A stretch of 64,000 nucleotides of DNA from Clostridiaceae bacterium (lineage in GTDB: Bacteria; Bacillota; Clostridia; DUPQ01). The stretch covers positions 1 through 64,000 of the forward strand of contig DUPQ01000009.1 of assembly GCA_012838235.1 (NCBI GenBank), written 5' to 3'. The position numbers and the translations under genes are program-made. Under the pieces are notes generated by a model, which saw nothing but the letters and a program-made list of their open reading frames with translations, did not search any database and had not been told where the DNA came from. Below are positions 2,253-20,430 of this stretch, piece after piece; position 1 is the first letter of the stretch; each line of letters begins with the position of its first letter.

Positions 2253-2879
2253 TCATCTGTTATTTTTATAATACCTACAGTAATCTCTTATAACACATCG
2301 CTCGCATGCGGGCTTTCTTGCATTACAGACCTCTCTTCCGTGAAAAACCAGTCTGTGACTGAATAAAGCGGATTTTTCAGGAGGAATTATCTTCTTCAAA
2401 TCCTGTTCAATCTTATCGGGATCGGTATTATTTGTAAGCCCTAATCTGCTTGAAATCCTTTTTGCATGTGTGTCCACAATTATCGCAGGTTTGTTATAAA
2501 TCTCCGCAAGTACAACATTTGCCGTCTTTCTGCCTACACCCGGTAACGTTGTTAAAAGATTAATATCATCGGGAATTATTCCGTTGAAATCTTCTATAAG
2601 TTTTTTACAACATGCCACTATATTCCTTGCTTTATTACGGTAAAAACCGGTCGGGAAAATAATGCTCTCCAGTTCCTTAATATCGGCATTTGCAAAATCT
2701 TCAGCCGTTTTGTACTTTGCAAACAATTCGGGAGTGGTTTTGTTTACTCTTTCATCGGTACACTGGGCGGATAGTTGAGTTGCTACAAGAAGATGAACGG
2801 GATCGGTATAATCCAGTGTACATCTGACGACGGGATATTCCTTTTCCAAAAGTTCTATTATTTTATCTATATCCGCCAT
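2253..2879 (-). CDS. nth: Endonuclease III
   Basis: HhH motif 'LPGVGRKTANVVLAEIYNKPAIIVDTHAKRIS' and C-terminal 4Fe-4S cysteines 'CNARKPACERCVIRDYC'. Confidence 0.95.
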   Translation of the reverse strand: MADIDKIIELLEKEYPVVRCTLDYTDPVHLLVATQLSAQCTDERVNKTTPELFAKYKTAEDFANADIKELESIIFPTGFYRNKARNIVACCKKLIEDFNGIIPDDINLLTTLPGVGRKTANVVLAEIYNKPAIIVDTHAKRISSRLGLTNNTDPDKIEQDLKKIIPPEKSALFSHRLVFHGREVCNARKPACERCVIRDYCRYYKNNR

Positions 2880-4286
2880 TTATTTCACCGTATCCTGTGT
2901 AACGGTAATAATAAGCTTCTTCAAATCACCTGTTTCGTTGCGTCTGTAGACTGTTAACTCCAGGCTTTCTCCCGGTAAATATGTATTCTTCAATTCAATG
3001 AAGTTTTCCGCAGAATTTACATATACATCATTAATACTTATAATCATATCTCCTACTCTCAATCCCGAATAAAATGCAGGTGTACCGTATCCGACATATG
3101 ACACACGGATACCTTTTACATATATTGTTTTCTGATCTTCTTCGGAAGTTATTGAAAAATTCCATGCTTCCGCAGATATACCTATTCCCAGATTGGGTGT
3201 AGTTTCCTCATTATACGACTTTACTTCCAGGTTTTCAGAGGCTTCTTTTACCTTGTTAATCGGAATAGCCTTAAAGAAACCGTTTTGTTGTTCATCTTTA
3301 ATAAAAACCGTTAAAGCAACAACCTGACCTTTTTTATTTACCAATGCGCCGCCGTTATTACTTCCGGTCATTACAGTCGAAGTGTTTATCATGTGCATAA
3401 GATCTTTCGGTGTTTCAGCGTCGGATAATATCCTGTCGTTAAATGTGTAAGAAAGGCCGGTCACAATTCCTGCGGAAACCTGTCCCTTGAAAGCATTATT
3501 ACCGCTTGCAACGGCAACGACGGTCTCACCTAAATACAGTTTGTCGGAATCGCCGTACTCTATAAACTGTAACGGTCTGTCACAATCTATTTTTAAAAGA
3601 GCTACGTTATTGGTTTTATCTCTGCCTATCACCTTAGCAAAATAGAGAGTGTTGAAATCAAAATCCACAAATACCGTGATGGAACAGTTTTCCTTAAACT
3701 TGTTGCTTTTGTCATAGCACAGAGGTTCTATAACACTGTCAGCGGTTATCATATATCCGTCATTGGAAATAATCAAAGCGGAGGCTTCGTTCATGTGAAC
3801 ACCCTTTTCATCCGCATACATGCATTTGATATAAGCAATTGACGGCATTATCTTCTGTACGGCATCACTTATATTGGAATCAACTTCCAGCGGAGTTACC
3901 TCCACTCTGGATATATCCCTGTAAGTGGTTATAACTAAATTCTCTCTTTTTTCACTTTCCGGCTCAATATCCGTATCCGCCTCCTGTGTTTCAGCAGGCA
4001 CCGGAATGTCGGTATTAACAGGCTCGGGTGGATCTGTCGGATTACTTAAAAACAGCAAGTCGGTATCCGGCTGATTTATCTTTCTTACGTAGAATACTGT
4101 TAAAGCGGTTGCGCATACGGACAATGTAATACAGAGTATACATACGAACAAAGGAAGAAGGATTCTGGACACAAAACTTTTCTTCCGGGTTTTTATTGTC
4201 TCCATGTAATACCCGTTATTTTTTATATCTTCAAATAACAATTCTTCGTTTTGTTCTTTTTTACCGTTTCTTTCTGTTCTTACCAT
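2880..4286 (-). CDS. HtrA-like trypsin-fold protein with TM anchor and PDZ domain; catalytic triad substituted (predicted pseudoprotease)
   Basis: HtrA fold landmarks 'SNDGYMITADSVIEPL', 'NNVALLKI', 'TGSNNGGALVN' and C-terminal PDZ 'GLRVGDMIISINDVYV'; start at 4286 preferred (GAGG upstream) over ORF start 4313. Confidence 0.85.
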   Translation of the reverse strand: MVRTERNGKKEQNEELLFEDIKNNGYYMETIKTRKKSFVSRILLPLFVCILCITLSVCATALTVFYVRKINQPDTDLLFLSNPTDPPEPVNTDIPVPAETQEADTDIEPESEKRENLVITTYRDISRVEVTPLEVDSNISDAVQKIMPSIAYIKCMYADEKGVHMNEASALIISNDGYMITADSVIEPLCYDKSNKFKENCSITVFVDFDFNTLYFAKVIGRDKTNNVALLKIDCDRPLQFIEYGDSDKLYLGETVVAVASGNNAFKGQVSAGIVTGLSYTFNDRILSDAETPKDLMHMINTSTVMTGSNNGGALVNKKGQVVALTVFIKDEQQNGFFKAIPINKVKEASENLEVKSYNEETTPNLGIGISAEAWNFSITSEEDQKTIYVKGIRVSYVGYGTPAFYSGLRVGDMIISINDVYVNSAENFIELKNTYLPGESLELTVYRRNETGDLKKLIITVTQDTVK

Positions 4287-4337
4287 TTTGTCCTCATAGT
4301 GATAGTACCACACTTTAACACTTTATTTGTTAACTTT

Positions 4338-5864
4338 TTATGAATTATCCGTTTGCTCGGCATTTTCCAATGTAAAGATAAATTCCGTTCCTATTCCTTT
4401 TTTGCTCTTTACATCTATCATTTCTTTATGTCTTTTAATAACGCTGAACACAATGGGCAGTCCCAACCCCGTACCTGTTCCGTCTCTGCCTCTCGCTTTA
4501 TCGCTTTTGTAAAATCTTGTCCAGATATTCTCCAAATCTTCCTGCTCAATACCTATTCCGTTATCTCTTATAGAAATATACACCTTATCTCTCTTCGGTT
4601 CTACCGTAATGGTAATATTACCTCCGTCATTGGTAAACTTAACTGCATTGTGTATTAAATTGATAAGCACTCTTTCAATATCATCGGAATTTGCATAGAC
4701 ATAGGTCAATTCGGAATGGAAATTAACATTAATAAATAGTTTTTTAAACGTTATCTCTTCCTCAAAACGCATAATGGACTTTCTTATCATATCATTTATG
4801 TCAAACCGATTCTTTACTAAAGATGCCTCATCATCCGCATCCAATTTAGTAAGAACCAGTAAGTCTCTTACCATATTGGTAAGCCGCTTTATTTCATCTG
4901 ATACTCTTTTAAGATAGGTTTTATGCTTTTCCTGAGGTATCGTTCCGTCTAAAATACCTTCTACAAATCCTCCTATTGAAGTCATCGGGGTTCTCAGTTC
5001 ATGAGCGACATTACTGGTAAATTCCGCTCTTTGTTGCTCTGTATTCTCCAGTCTCTCCATCATGCTGTTAAAAGTCTTGGATAATTCCCCTAATTCGGTT
5101 CTGTCATCGGTATACTTTGCCCGGACTTTAAGATTGCCCTGTGAAACAGAACGTGCAGCATTCAGAAAGTCATTCAACGGTCCGGATACCGATTTGGCGA
5201 AAGCCGCTACCAGGAGAACCGATAATGCGGAAATAAGCAGAATCGGAAACACTAAAAGATGAATATTGGATATAAATGCTTCTTTTTCCTGTTGTTTATA
5301 TGTACTTATGCATATCGCTATACGTGTCATCTGTTCGGGATCGGTCCTCGAAGTACTGTAACTGTCAACAAAAATATATGATCTCCCTATTAAATCCTCT
5401 TCTCCAAGCATTCTCTTAAAAATCTTACTGTTTTTGATATATGTGGAATCGGAATCGAATATTTTTCTATAACCCGTATCTTCCGGAAGATAATATGTGT
5501 AATTTGCCTGCTTCTTTTCCAATATATTAATTAAAGACTCCAATCTGGGAGCATGAGAAACAATCATGCCTTCTTCATCGATTATCCATATCATTTTGTT
5601 GCTCATGACAGCAAGCTTATCAATATAATCAAATAGATATGTCTGAGCATTAAAAGCACTGGATGTAAGATTGGAATAGAGAAGTATCTTTCTTTGTTCC
5701 AGTTCGCTTTTAACCAAAGGGTATATATTCTTTGCAGTCAGACTCTGATTATTAAGTATGCCGAACCAGGTCTGATAATAGATTATGATTGAAAAAAGAG
5801 ATACTATTATAATGATATAAAGCACAAATCTTCTTAATGTCGTGGATAAAACGTTCTGCTTCAT
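4338..5864 (-). CDS. Sensor histidine kinase (TM-sensor-TM-HAMP-HisKA-HATPase)
   Basis: H-box 'FTSNVAHELRTPMTSIGGFVEG', N/G boxes 'NLIHNAVKFT', 'DNGIGIEQEDL', 'GTGTGLGLPIV'. Confidence 0.95.
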   Translation of the reverse strand: MKQNVLSTTLRRFVLYIIIIVSLFSIIIYYQTWFGILNNQSLTAKNIYPLVKSELEQRKILLYSNLTSSAFNAQTYLFDYIDKLAVMSNKMIWIIDEEGMIVSHAPRLESLINILEKKQANYTYYLPEDTGYRKIFDSDSTYIKNSKIFKRMLGEEDLIGRSYIFVDSYSTSRTDPEQMTRIAICISTYKQQEKEAFISNIHLLVFPILLISALSVLLVAAFAKSVSGPLNDFLNAARSVSQGNLKVRAKYTDDRTELGELSKTFNSMMERLENTEQQRAEFTSNVAHELRTPMTSIGGFVEGILDGTIPQEKHKTYLKRVSDEIKRLTNMVRDLLVLTKLDADDEASLVKNRFDINDMIRKSIMRFEEEITFKKLFINVNFHSELTYVYANSDDIERVLINLIHNAVKFTNDGGNITITVEPKRDKVYISIRDNGIGIEQEDLENIWTRFYKSDKARGRDGTGTGLGLPIVFSVIKRHKEMIDVKSKKGIGTEFIFTLENAEQTDNS

Positions 5865-6538
5865 AATACTTCAAACTTATATCCTACTCCCCAAACGGTC
5901 TTCAACTGCCAGTTGACATCGGGAAGATTTATTTTCTCCCTCAGCCTCTTTATATGCACATCGACGGTTCTGGAATCCCCGAAAAAGTCAAATCCCCATA
6001 TTTTCTCCAAAAGCATATCTCTTGTAAAAACCGAATTGGGATTGGAAGCCATTAAAAATAACAACTCAAATTCTTTAAGAGGAAGCTCAATCTGTTTATC
6101 TTTGAGTAAAACGGTATATGTATTCTTACTTATCACAAGATCGGTAAACTTCAAATCGGAATACCCGCTTTGATTGCCCTTGGTCCTACGTATAATCGCT
6201 TTAACTCTTGCAACCAGTTCTTTTGCTTCGAAAGGTTTAACAACATAATCATCGGCACCCAATTCCAAACATAAAACCTTGTCAAAAGTCTCTGCCTTTG
6301 CACTCAGCATCAGAATGGGCACATCGTCTTTTCTCTTTATCTGTTTGCATACATCCTTACCGTCCATTCCGGGAAGCATGATATCCAGAATAATCAAATC
6401 AGGATTTTCATCTCTGTACACTTCCAGAGCTTCCAATCCGTCATTTGCACAGACAACCGTATAACCCTCTTTTTCCAAATAAAGTGTCAGAAGGTCGCAT
6501 ATGTTTTGATCATCATCAACAACCAGTATCTTATTCAT
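5861..6538 (-). CDS. OmpR/PhoB-family response regulator
   Basis: Receiver 'VDDDQNICDLL', 'PDLIILDIMLPGMDG', winged-helix C-terminus 'RTVDVHIKRLREKI'; 4-nt overlap with kinase. Confidence 0.95.
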   Translation of the reverse strand: MNKILVVDDDQNICDLLTLYLEKEGYTVVCANDGLEALEVYRDENPDLIILDIMLPGMDGKDVCKQIKRKDDVPILMLSAKAETFDKVLCLELGADDYVVKPFEAKELVARVKAIIRRTKGNQSGYSDLKFTDLVISKNTYTVLLKDKQIELPLKEFELLFLMASNPNSVFTRDMLLEKIWGFDFFGDSRTVDVHIKRLREKINLPDVNWQLKTVWGVGYKFEVL

Positions 6539-6590
6539 CGGAATTTCCCTTTACCAAATTGAGCAGTTTGAATATTTTGTATAAACAAAA

Positions 6591-7652
6591 CTAATCAATT
6601 CTTACTTCCTTTTTCAATTTTGCCGATTCATATATCGCATCGATAATCTTCATTACCATTACACCGTCTTCGGCTGTAGCACGGCATGGCGTTTTATTGA
6701 TAACACAATCCGTAAAATGTTCTATCTCGCTTTCAAAAAGACCGGTAAAACTCAAAGCGGAATCACCATGCGGTTTGACATCCACAAACCTGCCGTTTAT
6801 ATCTAAATAAAATTCTATACCGGGATCTATTTTCGCACCGCCTTTGGTCCCGAATATCTCTATTACACCGGTATCCTGCTTTATATTCAAATTAAACGAA
6901 GCCTCCACAAACATTGTAAGTCCGTTGTCAAATCTTACCAGTCCGGTAGCCATGTCTTCCACACTGAATACATATTTCGAACTATCTTCGACGACATATC
7001 CTTTGGGTCCTTCCGCTCTGTTGGGACCGAGATTGTCGTATACCGCTCCGTATGCCGATACCGGCTTGGGAGTATCGGAAAGATAACGAACCAGATCAAT
7101 TACGTGAACACCCAGGTCTATTAACGGGCCTCCGCCGGCATATCTAATATCCTTGAACCACCCTCCGGGACAACCGCTGCGACGTAAATATGTGGCTTTG
7201 GCATAATATATATCTCCCAATGTACCGTTATCAATAAAGGATTTGAGTATCTTTGCATCATTACCGAATCGTCTTACAAAACCTATCATAAGGAGTTTGC
7301 CGTTTCTTTTTGCGGCTTTTTGCATTTCCAGAGCCTCGGCTGTATTCATTGCCATAGGCTTTTCGCATAACACATTTGCCTTACTGTTTAATGCGGCAAT
7401 TGTTGCGTCTTTATGAGCACTGTTCCATGTACATACACTTACGGCATCCAATTTATGTGCCGATAGCATTTTATTGTAATCGGTGTAGTAGTACGGTACG
7501 TCGTGTTTCTTTGCAAAAGCCGTAACTTTTTCTTCATCAATATCACATACCGCTACAACCTCGCATCTGTCGGAAAGACGTTTGTAGCCGGCCATATGAA
7601 ATGTGCTGATATTCCCCGTTCCGATAATACCTACTTTAATCTTTTCTTTCAT
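6591..7652 (-). CDS. Gfo/Idh/MocA family oxidoreductase
   Basis: Rossmann 'KVGIIGTGNISTFHMAGY', 'CEKPMAMNTAEA'; ATG at 7652 preceded by AAGGGGTG. Confidence 0.92.
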   Translation of the reverse strand: MKEKIKVGIIGTGNISTFHMAGYKRLSDRCEVVAVCDIDEEKVTAFAKKHDVPYYYTDYNKMLSAHKLDAVSVCTWNSAHKDATIAALNSKANVLCEKPMAMNTAEALEMQKAAKRNGKLLMIGFVRRFGNDAKILKSFIDNGTLGDIYYAKATYLRRSGCPGGWFKDIRYAGGGPLIDLGVHVIDLVRYLSDTPKPVSAYGAVYDNLGPNRAEGPKGYVVEDSSKYVFSVEDMATGLVRFDNGLTMFVEASFNLNIKQDTGVIEIFGTKGGAKIDPGIEFYLDINGRFVDVKPHGDSALSFTGLFESEIEHFTDCVINKTPCRATAEDGVMVMKIIDAIYESAKLKKEVRID

Positions 7653-17033: not shown

Positions 17034-20000
17034 TCAAACTCTCTTTATCTTAATATCCGCCTGTACTCCGTTTATGTCCCAAGTCGCACAATAGAATGAA
17101 TCATCGGCTGCTTTGGCAATGCCCGTTGCAAGTACATCCTTCATAATCGAGGGGAAATTTTTCACAACCAGTTTCTCCAGCATGTCACTGCTTTCGATGT
17201 ATACGGTTATCTTGTCGGTAACATCATAACCTGCATCTTTTCTCATGGTCTGTATTTTACTGACTATTTCCCTTACGTATCCCTCTTCAATCAGTTGCTC
17301 GTCCAGATTGATATCCAGAACCACGGTTATTCCGTTATCCGATTGGGATATAAGACCGTCTTTCTCCTTAGTCTCGCTGAGCACATCGTCTTTTTCCAGT
17401 ACTACTGCATTTCCCTCTACCGTAAACTCATAATTCAACCCTTTTTCAAACAGTCCCATAACATGAGCACCGTCGGCACTTTTAAGATGTTCGGATATCG
17501 CAGGCAATAATCTGCCGTATTTCTTCCCCAATGTTCTCAACTGCGGCTTGAGGCTGTAATCTATGAACATGGACGCATCGGTCACATAAGTTATATCCTT
17601 GATATTTAACTCATCTTTCAGAAGCTCGATATACTCTTGATTAAGTTTCTTTTCCGATGATATGTAAAGGTTACGAAGAGGCTGTCTGTTCTTTATACCG
17701 GAAATATTCCTTAAGCTTCTGGCAACAACAATTACTTTAAGCAACTCTTCCATCTGATTCTCCATTTCCTTATCGATTAATGATTCATCGCATACGGGAT
17801 AATCGGTCAGATGAACGCTTATAGGAGCGCTTTTATCCAGGTTAACAACAAGGTTTCCGTATATCTGCTCGGTTATAAAGGGTGTAAACGGTGCCGCCAG
17901 TTTAGCTAAAGTAACCAAAGCGGTGTACAATGTCAGATAAGCGTTTATCTTGTCTTGAGTCTCCTCGCTTCCCCAATATCTTTCGCGCGATCTTCTGACA
18001 TACCAGTTACTCAATTGATCGGTAAACTCCTGAATCTCTCTGGAAGCTTCGAATATTCTGTAGTTCACCAGATTTTTATCGGTATTCTTTACTAAAGTGT
18101 TAAGTTTGGACAGTATCCATCTGTCCATTAAACAGAGCGTGTCTTTCTTCATCCGATATTTCAGTGGATTAAATTTATCTATTTCGGCATAAAGTACATA
18201 GAAAGCATAGGTATTCCACAATGTACCCATGAATTTTCTCTGCCCTTCGGTAACGGCTTTATCGTGGAAACGACTGGGCAGCCACGGAGCGCTTACCGTA
18301 TAGAAATACCAACGCACCGCATCTGCACCCTGATTCTCCAGCACATCCCAAGGATCCACTACATTACCTTTATGCTTACTCATCTTTTGACCTTCTTTAT
18401 CCTGAACAAGACCTAAAACTATGCAGTTTTTATATGCCGGGCTGTCAAAAAGCAGACAGGAAATGGCATGTAATGTATAAAACCAACCTCTGGTCTGATC
18501 CAATGCTTCGGATATGAAATCTGCCGGAAAGCCCTGCTCAAATACTTGCTTATTCTCAAACGGATAGTGATGCTGAGCAAAAGGCATGGAACCGCTGTCA
18601 AACCAGCAGTCTATTACTTCCGCAACTCTCTTCATCATCGCGGAACATTTCGGACATTTAAGATGCACATTGTCGATATAGGGTTTATGCAGTTCGATAT
18701 CTTTTGGGCAATCGACTGCTTTTTCCTTCAACTCCGCAATACTTCCTATAGCCTCTCTGTGACCGCATTCGCATTCCCAAATGGGCAAAGGAGTTCCCCA
18801 GTAACGTTCCCTGGATATTCCCCAATCCACTACCGCACGTAAGAAATTCCCGAAACGTCCGTCTTTTATTGTGGCGGGCATCCAGTTTATTTTGTCATTA
18901 TTCTTAAGAAGACTGTCCCGTATTGCCGTCATTTTTATAAACCAGGTGGAACGGGCATAATAAATTAAAGGGGTGTCGCATCTCCAGCAGAAAGGATAGG
19001 AGTGTACGATTTCCGAGGACTTGAACAGAAGACCGCGCTTATCTAAATCCCCGATTATAATTTTATCGGCATCTTTAACAAACAAACCTTTTATAAATCC
19101 CGTCTGCTCTACCATGTGTCCGGCTTCGTCCACCATCTGCAAAAACGGAAGGTTATATTTCTTCCCTATTATCGAGTCATCCTCACCGAATGCGGGAGCG
19201 GTATGTACAATACCGGTACCGTCTGTCAATGTGACGAAATCGCCTAAACATACATAAAAGCCTTCTTTCTTTGCATCTTCATCGACAAAATCGAATAAGG
19301 GCTCATACTTCATGTATTCCAGCTCTTTTCCCTTTACCGTCGACACTATTTCGTAATCCGATCCTTCAAATACCGAAGGGACCAGTTGCTTGGCAACGAT
19401 TATATACTCATTGTTATACTTCACCTTTGCATAATCAAACTTTGCACCTACCGTAAGTGCCACGTTTGACGGTAATGTCCACGGAGTGGTTGTCCAGGCC
19501 ATAAAATATGTATCGGCAGTATCCTTAACCTTAAACTTGACATATATGGTCTTGTCGGTTATGTCTTTGTATCCCTGAGCCACTTCATGTGAAGAAAGGC
19601 TGGTTCCGCATCTGGGACAATAAGGAACTACCTTATGTCCTTTGTACAGCAGACCCATATCCCATATTTTCTTCAAAGCCCACCATTCCGATTCTATATA
19701 GTTGTTGTCATAGGTAATATATGGGTTTTCCATATCCGCCCAGAAACCCACACGATCACTCATCTTTTCCCATTCGCCTTTATATTTCCAGACGCTTTCT
19801 TTGCACTTTTTAATAAAAGGTTCAATTCCGTAACGCTCTATATCGTCTTTTCCGTCCAGGCCTAACATTTTCTCCACTTCCAGCTCCACAGGAAGCCCGT
19901 GAGTATCCCATCCGGCTTTTCTTAACACTTTATATCCCTTCATGGTCTTATATCTGGGAATAATGTCTTTTATGACTCTGGTAAGTATATGACCTATATG

Positions 20001-20162
20001 CGGCTTGCCGTTAGCAGTCGGCGGACCGTCATAGAATGTGAAATGCTCACATCCCTCTCTGTTCTCTATACTTTTTTCGAAGACTCTGTTTTGCTTCCAG
20101 AACTCCAAAGTCTCCAATTCCCGCTTTACGAAATTCAAATCAGTTGATACTTTTTTATACAT
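17034..20162 (-). CDS. ileS: Isoleucyl-tRNA synthetase
   Basis: 'GKPHIGHILTRV', 'GQKMSKHKGNVVDP', 1042 aa. Confidence 0.98.
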   Translation of the reverse strand: MYKKVSTDLNFVKRELETLEFWKQNRVFEKSIENREGCEHFTFYDGPPTANGKPHIGHILTRVIKDIIPRYKTMKGYKVLRKAGWDTHGLPVELEVEKMLGLDGKDDIERYGIEPFIKKCKESVWKYKGEWEKMSDRVGFWADMENPYITYDNNYIESEWWALKKIWDMGLLYKGHKVVPYCPRCGTSLSSHEVAQGYKDITDKTIYVKFKVKDTADTYFMAWTTTPWTLPSNVALTVGAKFDYAKVKYNNEYIIVAKQLVPSVFEGSDYEIVSTVKGKELEYMKYEPLFDFVDEDAKKEGFYVCLGDFVTLTDGTGIVHTAPAFGEDDSIIGKKYNLPFLQMVDEAGHMVEQTGFIKGLFVKDADKIIIGDLDKRGLLFKSSEIVHSYPFCWRCDTPLIYYARSTWFIKMTAIRDSLLKNNDKINWMPATIKDGRFGNFLRAVVDWGISRERYWGTPLPIWECECGHREAIGSIAELKEKAVDCPKDIELHKPYIDNVHLKCPKCSAMMKRVAEVIDCWFDSGSMPFAQHHYPFENKQVFEQGFPADFISEALDQTRGWFYTLHAISCLLFDSPAYKNCIVLGLVQDKEGQKMSKHKGNVVDPWDVLENQGADAVRWYFYTVSAPWLPSRFHDKAVTEGQRKFMGTLWNTYAFYVLYAEIDKFNPLKYRMKKDTLCLMDRWILSKLNTLVKNTDKNLVNYRIFEASREIQEFTDQLSNWYVRRSRERYWGSEETQDKINAYLTLYTALVTLAKLAAPFTPFITEQIYGNLVVNLDKSAPISVHLTDYPVCDESLIDKEMENQMEELLKVIVVARSLRNISGIKNRQPLRNLYISSEKKLNQEYIELLKDELNIKDITYVTDASMFIDYSLKPQLRTLGKKYGRLLPAISEHLKSADGAHVMGLFEKGLNYEFTVEGNAVVLEKDDVLSETKEKDGLISQSDNGITVVLDINLDEQLIEEGYVREIVSKIQTMRKDAGYDVTDKITVYIESSDMLEKLVVKNFPSIMKDVLATGIAKAADDSFYCATWDINGVQADIKIKRV

Positions 20163-20179: not shown

Positions 20180-20430
20180 TTAATGCCTATAAAAAAACTC
20201 TCTCATCTCAAGGGACGAAAGAGTATTCGCGGTACCACCCAAGTTGCTTATAAAAGCCGCTTAATTACGATAACGGTCTGTTCCGGGTTACCTTACTGCT
20301 TGTATTCGGGTAACCGGCTCCCCGATGATTTTCAACATGCCTGCCTGTATGTTTGCACCGACCACATACTCTCTTGAAGGATAAGCATATTTACTCTTCG
20401 GATCCTTGCTTTTCAGTATATTATAAGCAT
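20180..20430 (-). promoter_or_regulatory. T-box leader upstream of ileS (boundaries approximate)
   Basis: Minus-strand T-box core GGGTGGTACCGCGAA (20226-20240), then terminator ACTCTTTCG...TGAGAGAGTTTTTTT; upstream stem I-like sequence with GAGAGTATGTGGTCGGTGCAAACATAC. Confidence 0.92.

Follow-up and report, generated by a model that had tools for sequence, protein, structure and literature searches.

What does an HtrA-like protein do behind a two-component system once the residues that make HtrA a protease have gone? The question is raised by a gene of the window, by which we mean the whole stretch of DNA analysed, 64,000 nucleotides of contig DUPQ01000009.1 from the Clostridiaceae bacterium assembly GCA_012838235.1 (Table 1). 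An earlier note on this DNA had proposed a membrane-anchored pseudoprotease, with all three catalytic residues replaced, that may modulate the histidine kinase encoded beside it. Is the protein dead, is it more than a gene in decay, and what could it be kept for?

Table 1. The HtrA-like gene of the window, the sites that mark its degenerate active site, and the neighbouring genes of its cluster.
Feature	Position	Strand	Details and basis
HtrA-like pseudoprotease ORF	2880..4286	-	468 aa; ATG at 4286, alternative GTG start at 4313 possible; Trypsin_2 and PDZ_2
Predicted transmembrane helix, residues 38-70	4077..4175	-	AF2 helix, hydropathy
Degenerate trypsin-like domain, about residues 131-362	3201..3896	-	Pfam, AF2 domain model
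Catalytic His position, Ser184 (AGT)	3735..3737	-	Alignment, codon reading
Catalytic Asp position, Asn227 (AAC)	3606..3608	-	Alignment, codon reading
Oxyanion-hole Gly193-equivalent, Ser309	3360..3362	-	Column conservation; non-glycine in 4/4 genus members
Catalytic Ser position, Asn311 (AAC)	3354..3356	-	Alignment, codon reading; Asn in 4/4 genus members
PDZ domain, about residues 363-468	2883..3200	-	Pfam, AF2 domain model
Sensor histidine kinase, extracytoplasmic sensor region	4338..5864	-	HAMP, HisKA, HATPase_c; domain search
OmpR-type response regulator	5861..6538	-	Domain search
nth, endonuclease III; ends the conserved cluster	2253..2879	-	TIGR01083 above cut-off; synteny

The fold of an HtrA/Deg protein, in which one or more PDZ domains follow a trypsin-like domain, is found here by Pfam, AlphaFold2 and Foldseek alike. 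From its N-terminus the protein consists of a predicted membrane helix, a poorly conserved linker, the trypsin-like domain and the PDZ domain, with Pfam matches to Trypsin_2 (9e-16) and PDZ_2 (2e-9). AlphaFold2 returned an HtrA fold for the protease-PDZ region (73 sequences, mean pLDDT 87.7), a domain model that supersedes a full-length model with a pLDDT of 67.8. Foldseek matched the domain model to structures of DegQ, DegP, HtrA1 and DegS with probability 1.00. The TM-scores lie near 0.5-0.6 and the rmsd is large, the two domains having been superposed jointly; these modest scores probably reflect a differing angle between protease and PDZ domain in the model. The score of 118 bits against the NCBIfam HtrA model TIGR02037 (cut-off 416) counts little as a shortfall because active relatives also score under the cut-off. 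These results support the proposal of a pseudoprotease with a preserved fold, an intact PDZ domain and a membrane anchor, the anchor being predicted.

What the protein lacks is the His-Asp-Ser triad of an HtrA/Deg serine endopeptidase. Direct reading of the three codons bears out the replacements that had been described, His to Ser, Asp to Asn and Ser to Asn, and in an alignment with 106 active homologues the three residues line up with the catalytic His, Asp and Ser. Such an endopeptidase also has glycine at position 193. The equivalent residue is Ser, Ser, Ile and Asn in the window protein and its three relatives from the same genus, and Gly in all 69 active sequences aligned.

The genus sample comprises four species, all metagenome-assembled: that of the window and the congeners JAAYBX01 (Clostridiaceae bacterium AS06rmzACSIP_360), MWDI01 (Firmicutes bacterium ADurb.Bin146) and JAQVAJ01 (Clostridia bacterium STD2_39). 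The three congeners were retrieved by an alignment-based search of genome contigs, unlike a single-protein query against genome contigs, which gave no match. A phylum-wide search of 399 genomes (E <= 1e-36) produced no additional close relative, and the plasmid records searched contained distant HtrA matches only. In alignment the triads of the four proteins read S-N-N, T-N-N, S-D-N and S-N-N. The earlier claim that all three residues are replaced thus applies to three of the four species, but one congener (G003) retains the Asp; His and Ser are both gone in all four, and the nucleophile site is Asn in every case. Outside the genus, His-Asp-Ser is intact in 106 of 106 homologues (110 distinct homologues were surveyed, nearly all from the same class). 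Since the loss is seen in four of four genus members and in none of the 106 others, chance is not a credible explanation. Strain-specific decay and assembly error, which would leave close homologues with a normal triad, were rejected as well, because three independently assembled congeners carry the same loss. Catalytic loss is apparently restricted to this one genus.

Could the protein still be an enzyme, with an active site that is rearranged or different? The substrate groove does retain some conserved residues, for example Asn310-x-Gly-Gly. However, a search for a histidine conserved among all four pseudoproteases found none that could stand in for the lost one, the oxyanion glycine is lost and position 311 is Asn throughout, and we consider a surviving enzyme extremely unlikely. 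Substitute catalytic residues elsewhere in the fold were rejected on the same absence of a conserved histidine. Among 88 columns conserved in active homologues, 39 are retained in all four genus members and 33 are altered in all four. The altered columns include the Gly193-equivalent, GxG at 168-170, Asn182, the GNPG loop at 260-263, 301-311 and 338-339, and many of them fall within active-site segments. Judged from these alignments, the window protein is almost certainly catalytically dead.

A dead protein need not be a decaying one. Between congeners, synonymous sites are saturated (pS 0.71-0.78) against a pN of 0.14-0.32, and protein identity among the four genus members is 50-73%. Neutral divergence of such depth would be expected to bring tens of stop codons; there are none, and the frames are open in all four species. 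The best-conserved region is the dead protease domain itself in each of the five congener pairs examined (54-78% identity). The four proteins share 54 invariant residues that active enzymes seldom have, among them Cys155, Cys190, Tyr280, Lys339 and residues of an aromatic patch of the PDZ domain at 397-407. They suggest a new conserved surface, although with only four sequences some of the 54 reflect shared ancestry and not function. The ratio of pN in the protease domain to pN in the PDZ domain is 0.69-0.92 in the pseudoproteases versus 0.45-0.64 in active homologues; by this measure the protease domain is preserved, but its former catalytic parts appear to be under lighter constraint than in active homologues.

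That relaxation of the protease domain relative to the PDZ domain fits a slow decay, in which a second HtrA made catalysis unnecessary and the gene, with a residual structural role at most, is being lost. Also consistent with decay are a faster evolution of the window HtrA than of its operon neighbours and its redundancy with an intact enzyme encoded on contig C43 of the same genome. The selection pattern nevertheless disfavours it: the frame stays open under strong purifying selection in four diverged species, the dead domain is the best conserved, and the invariant residues particular to the genus are new. We regard slow decay as very unlikely. The earlier view that the gene does not look like random decay agrees with a loss common to all four species, open frames and purifying selection. 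The overall pattern is that of an apparent functional switch followed by new constraint, and the pseudoprotease has very probably been retained for a function.

The cysteines of these proteins form a small pattern of their own. Those at 155 and 190 and two more in the membrane helix, at 49 and 52, are invariant in the four pseudoproteases, and Cys155 and Cys190 are absent from 69 active relatives. A disulphide or a ligand site at Cys155/Cys190 is possible. In the sister genera the membrane helix of the active HtrAs is rich in glycine (e.g. GASAGIAGVGYF), whereas the pseudoproteases carry a cysteine-containing helix there; it is conceivable that the altered helix reflects a changed helix partner.

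The neighbouring genes trace the ancestry of the dead protein. The order of response regulator, kinase and HtrA pointed out earlier in the window, three genes on one strand with short gaps that may be co-transcribed, recurs across the genus and in its two sister genera (g2 and g3), with nth added downstream. In the three genera nth is the constant final gene of the cluster, abutting or slightly overlapping HtrA; in the window its ATG directly abuts the HtrA stop codon. The cluster of genome G001 is split over two contigs (C120, with the regulator, the kinase and the HtrA start, and C266, with the remainder and nth), and the contig of G010 stops inside the kinase, with HtrA outside view. The sister-genus HtrAs (L045-L050) share the operon position, the anchor and the domain order, but they keep His-Asp-Ser and the oxyanion glycine. 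Identity of the window proteins to those of the sister genera is 62-65% for the regulator and 56-64% for nth, and only 27-32% for HtrA.

Stem lengths, computed with LG+G4 on a fixed species tree whose imposed topology and long branches can mislead, place a burst of change in the HtrA of the genus: on its stem the protease domain accumulated 1.69 and the PDZ domain 1.60 substitutions per site, versus 0.24-0.49 on sister stems. There is no burst in the regulator (0.47 versus 0.34-0.40) or in the kinase core (0.54 versus 0.45-0.67). Synteny is firmer evidence of orthology than a tree with fixed topology. From these comparisons, the window HtrA has evidently been inherited vertically from the active HtrA of an ancestral RR-HK-HtrA-nth operon. 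The catalytic machinery was lost on the genus stem, with rapid change of the protease and PDZ domains, and the protein has been under purifying selection since.

Given this position, the dead HtrA could be a direct accessory of the kinase, contacting its sensor domain to repress it or relay a signal, with little general holding. The two genes are adjacent on the same strand in a conserved order, and both products have a predicted membrane anchor and predicted domains outside the cytoplasm. However, because the sister genera hold an active-type enzyme at the same position, the operon link is older than the catalytic loss, and synteny alone is therefore no proof that the dead form in particular is tied to the kinase. 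Nor is the kinase sensor uniquely altered in the genus. Its stem is 1.71 in the genus versus 1.50 in g2, and with the g2 stem nearly as long there is no clear co-change; since the sensors diverge strongly between all genera, co-change was set aside as uninformative. We hold a direct accessory role to be rather unlikely.

A promoter scan gave sites no more numerous than in shuffled sequences. Elsewhere in the window, a T-box leader (20208-20415 (-), RF00230, 139.9 bits) lies just upstream of a 1042-aa ORF (17034-20162 (-)), which is possibly a candidate aminoacyl-tRNA synthetase.

A second RR-HK-HtrA operon is present in all four genus species, on contig C43 (2203-5790 (+)) in the window genome, where a tRNA pseudouridine synthase gene then follows. 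The HtrA of this operon has an intact His-Asp-Ser triad, is 65-74% identical across the genus and probably carries out the proteolysis. Among the seven other family genomes, a second HtrA occurs in G005 alone; because several of these genomes are incomplete, the contrast is suggestive and unproven. The intact paralogue most likely freed the window HtrA from catalysis and so allowed a neofunctionalised pseudoprotease to arise.

Alternatively, the pseudoprotease may serve the C43 enzyme as a non-catalytic partner. HtrA proteins are trimers, and in mixed oligomers a dead protomer might recruit substrate or tune activity. The distribution of the intact paralogue is in keeping with such a partnership, for which the magnetosome protein MamO, which is needed for or promotes MamE-dependent proteolysis, offers a model (PMC4794232). 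The comparison goes only so far: MamE activation requires the TauE domain of MamO, absent from the window protein, the two HtrAs of the window genome are only about 30% identical, so that shared trimers are not obvious, and the other family genomes are partly incomplete. We think a partnership of this kind unlikely.

The explanation that we prefer is that of a dead HtrA fixed in the genus and kept as a membrane-tethered binder, and taken whole it has about an even chance of being correct. The pseudoprotease would be a non-cutting receptor or holdase on the outer face of the membrane. Its PDZ domain and remodelled substrate groove would take hold of exported proteins by their C-termini or by exposed segments, and the proteins held in this way could, in the weakest step of the scheme, set the input of the co-encoded sensor kinase or ease the load on the active HtrA. 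A holding or receptor function for the protein is a proposition that we find evenly balanced. It has support by analogy: in Bacillus subtilis, an engineered inactive HtrA lowers secretion stress, which its authors credit to retained chaperone-like activity (PMC10715036). Specific control of the neighbouring kinase by the pseudoprotease is doubtful. One could go further and envision that the effector protease of an envelope-stress operon became, once and on the genus stem, a non-proteolytic co-receptor dedicated to its own kinase, with cutting left to the HtrA of the second operon. This scenario is rather improbable; if true, it would be a natural switch from protease to sensor whose ancestral active state is still kept in the sister genera. 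The literature that we searched, largely outside subscription journals, contained no case of a sensor kinase linked to an inactive HtrA.

Two systems of Bacillus subtilis resemble the arrangement of the locus. HtrA and HtrB, under the CssRS two-component system, which senses misfolded exported proteins, are likewise membrane-anchored HtrAs with a PDZ domain that are coupled to two-component signalling (PMC10715036); the natural enzymes are active, unlike the window protein. YycK/YyxA (HtrC) is encoded by the gene that closes the wal operon, likewise an operon of an OmpR-type two-component system, and it was reported to have no part in WalKR-dependent regulation (PMC4801191). Unlike the wal operon, the window cluster has no walHIJ between kinase and HtrA, its regulator is not the best WalR of its genome, and its HtrA is dead. 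The best NCBIfam matches had suggested a WalRK identity for the window pair, which was rejected because another locus is the better match for WalR in 9 of 11 family genomes; the two where this does not hold, G001 and G004, are incomplete. Against NF040534 (YycF; cut-off 340), the window regulator reaches 256 bits and a regulator on contig C53 of the same genome 299.5 bits. This C53 locus (2421-7090 (+)), which also encodes a 602-aa kinase, is the probable WalRK locus; at the expected place of walH and walI it is followed by two ORFs, 480 and 272 aa long, that had no Pfam match at 1e-5.

Inactive HtrA domains are known from other lineages. In plants, AtDeg16 and the second domain of AtDeg7 likewise have mutated triads that were kept in evolution, and the inactive AtDeg7 domain aids trimerisation (PMC3473262). 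These proteins are eukaryotic, belong to another lineage and, in contrast to the window protein, have no operon link to a kinase.

The closest parallel is MamO, a proven pseudoprotease for which a non-glycine residue at position 193 is an extra signature (PMC4794232). Like the window protein, MamO and inactive copies of MamE in magnetotactic bacteria combine an HtrA-type domain, a degenerate triad and a non-glycine 193 with the presence of an active relative. Redundancy among magnetosome proteases let one copy lose catalysis (PMC4794232), a situation that the second operon resembles. The window protein differs in having a C-terminal PDZ domain, in having neither the surface di-histidine metal motif nor the C-terminal TauE-like domain of MamO, in the loss of both His and Ser, and in being encoded in a two-component operon of Bacillota. 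MamO-like metal binding was rejected on the absence of conserved histidines in the four proteins. The best documented natural bacterial HtrA pseudoproteases that we found belong to magnetosome islands, and the locus described here, part of an ordinary two-component/HtrA operon, adds a case that is independent of them and genus-wide. With active-type and dead orthologues at the same locus, these genera provide natural controls for the roles of HtrA beyond cutting, such as holding, sensing and the tuning of a kinase.
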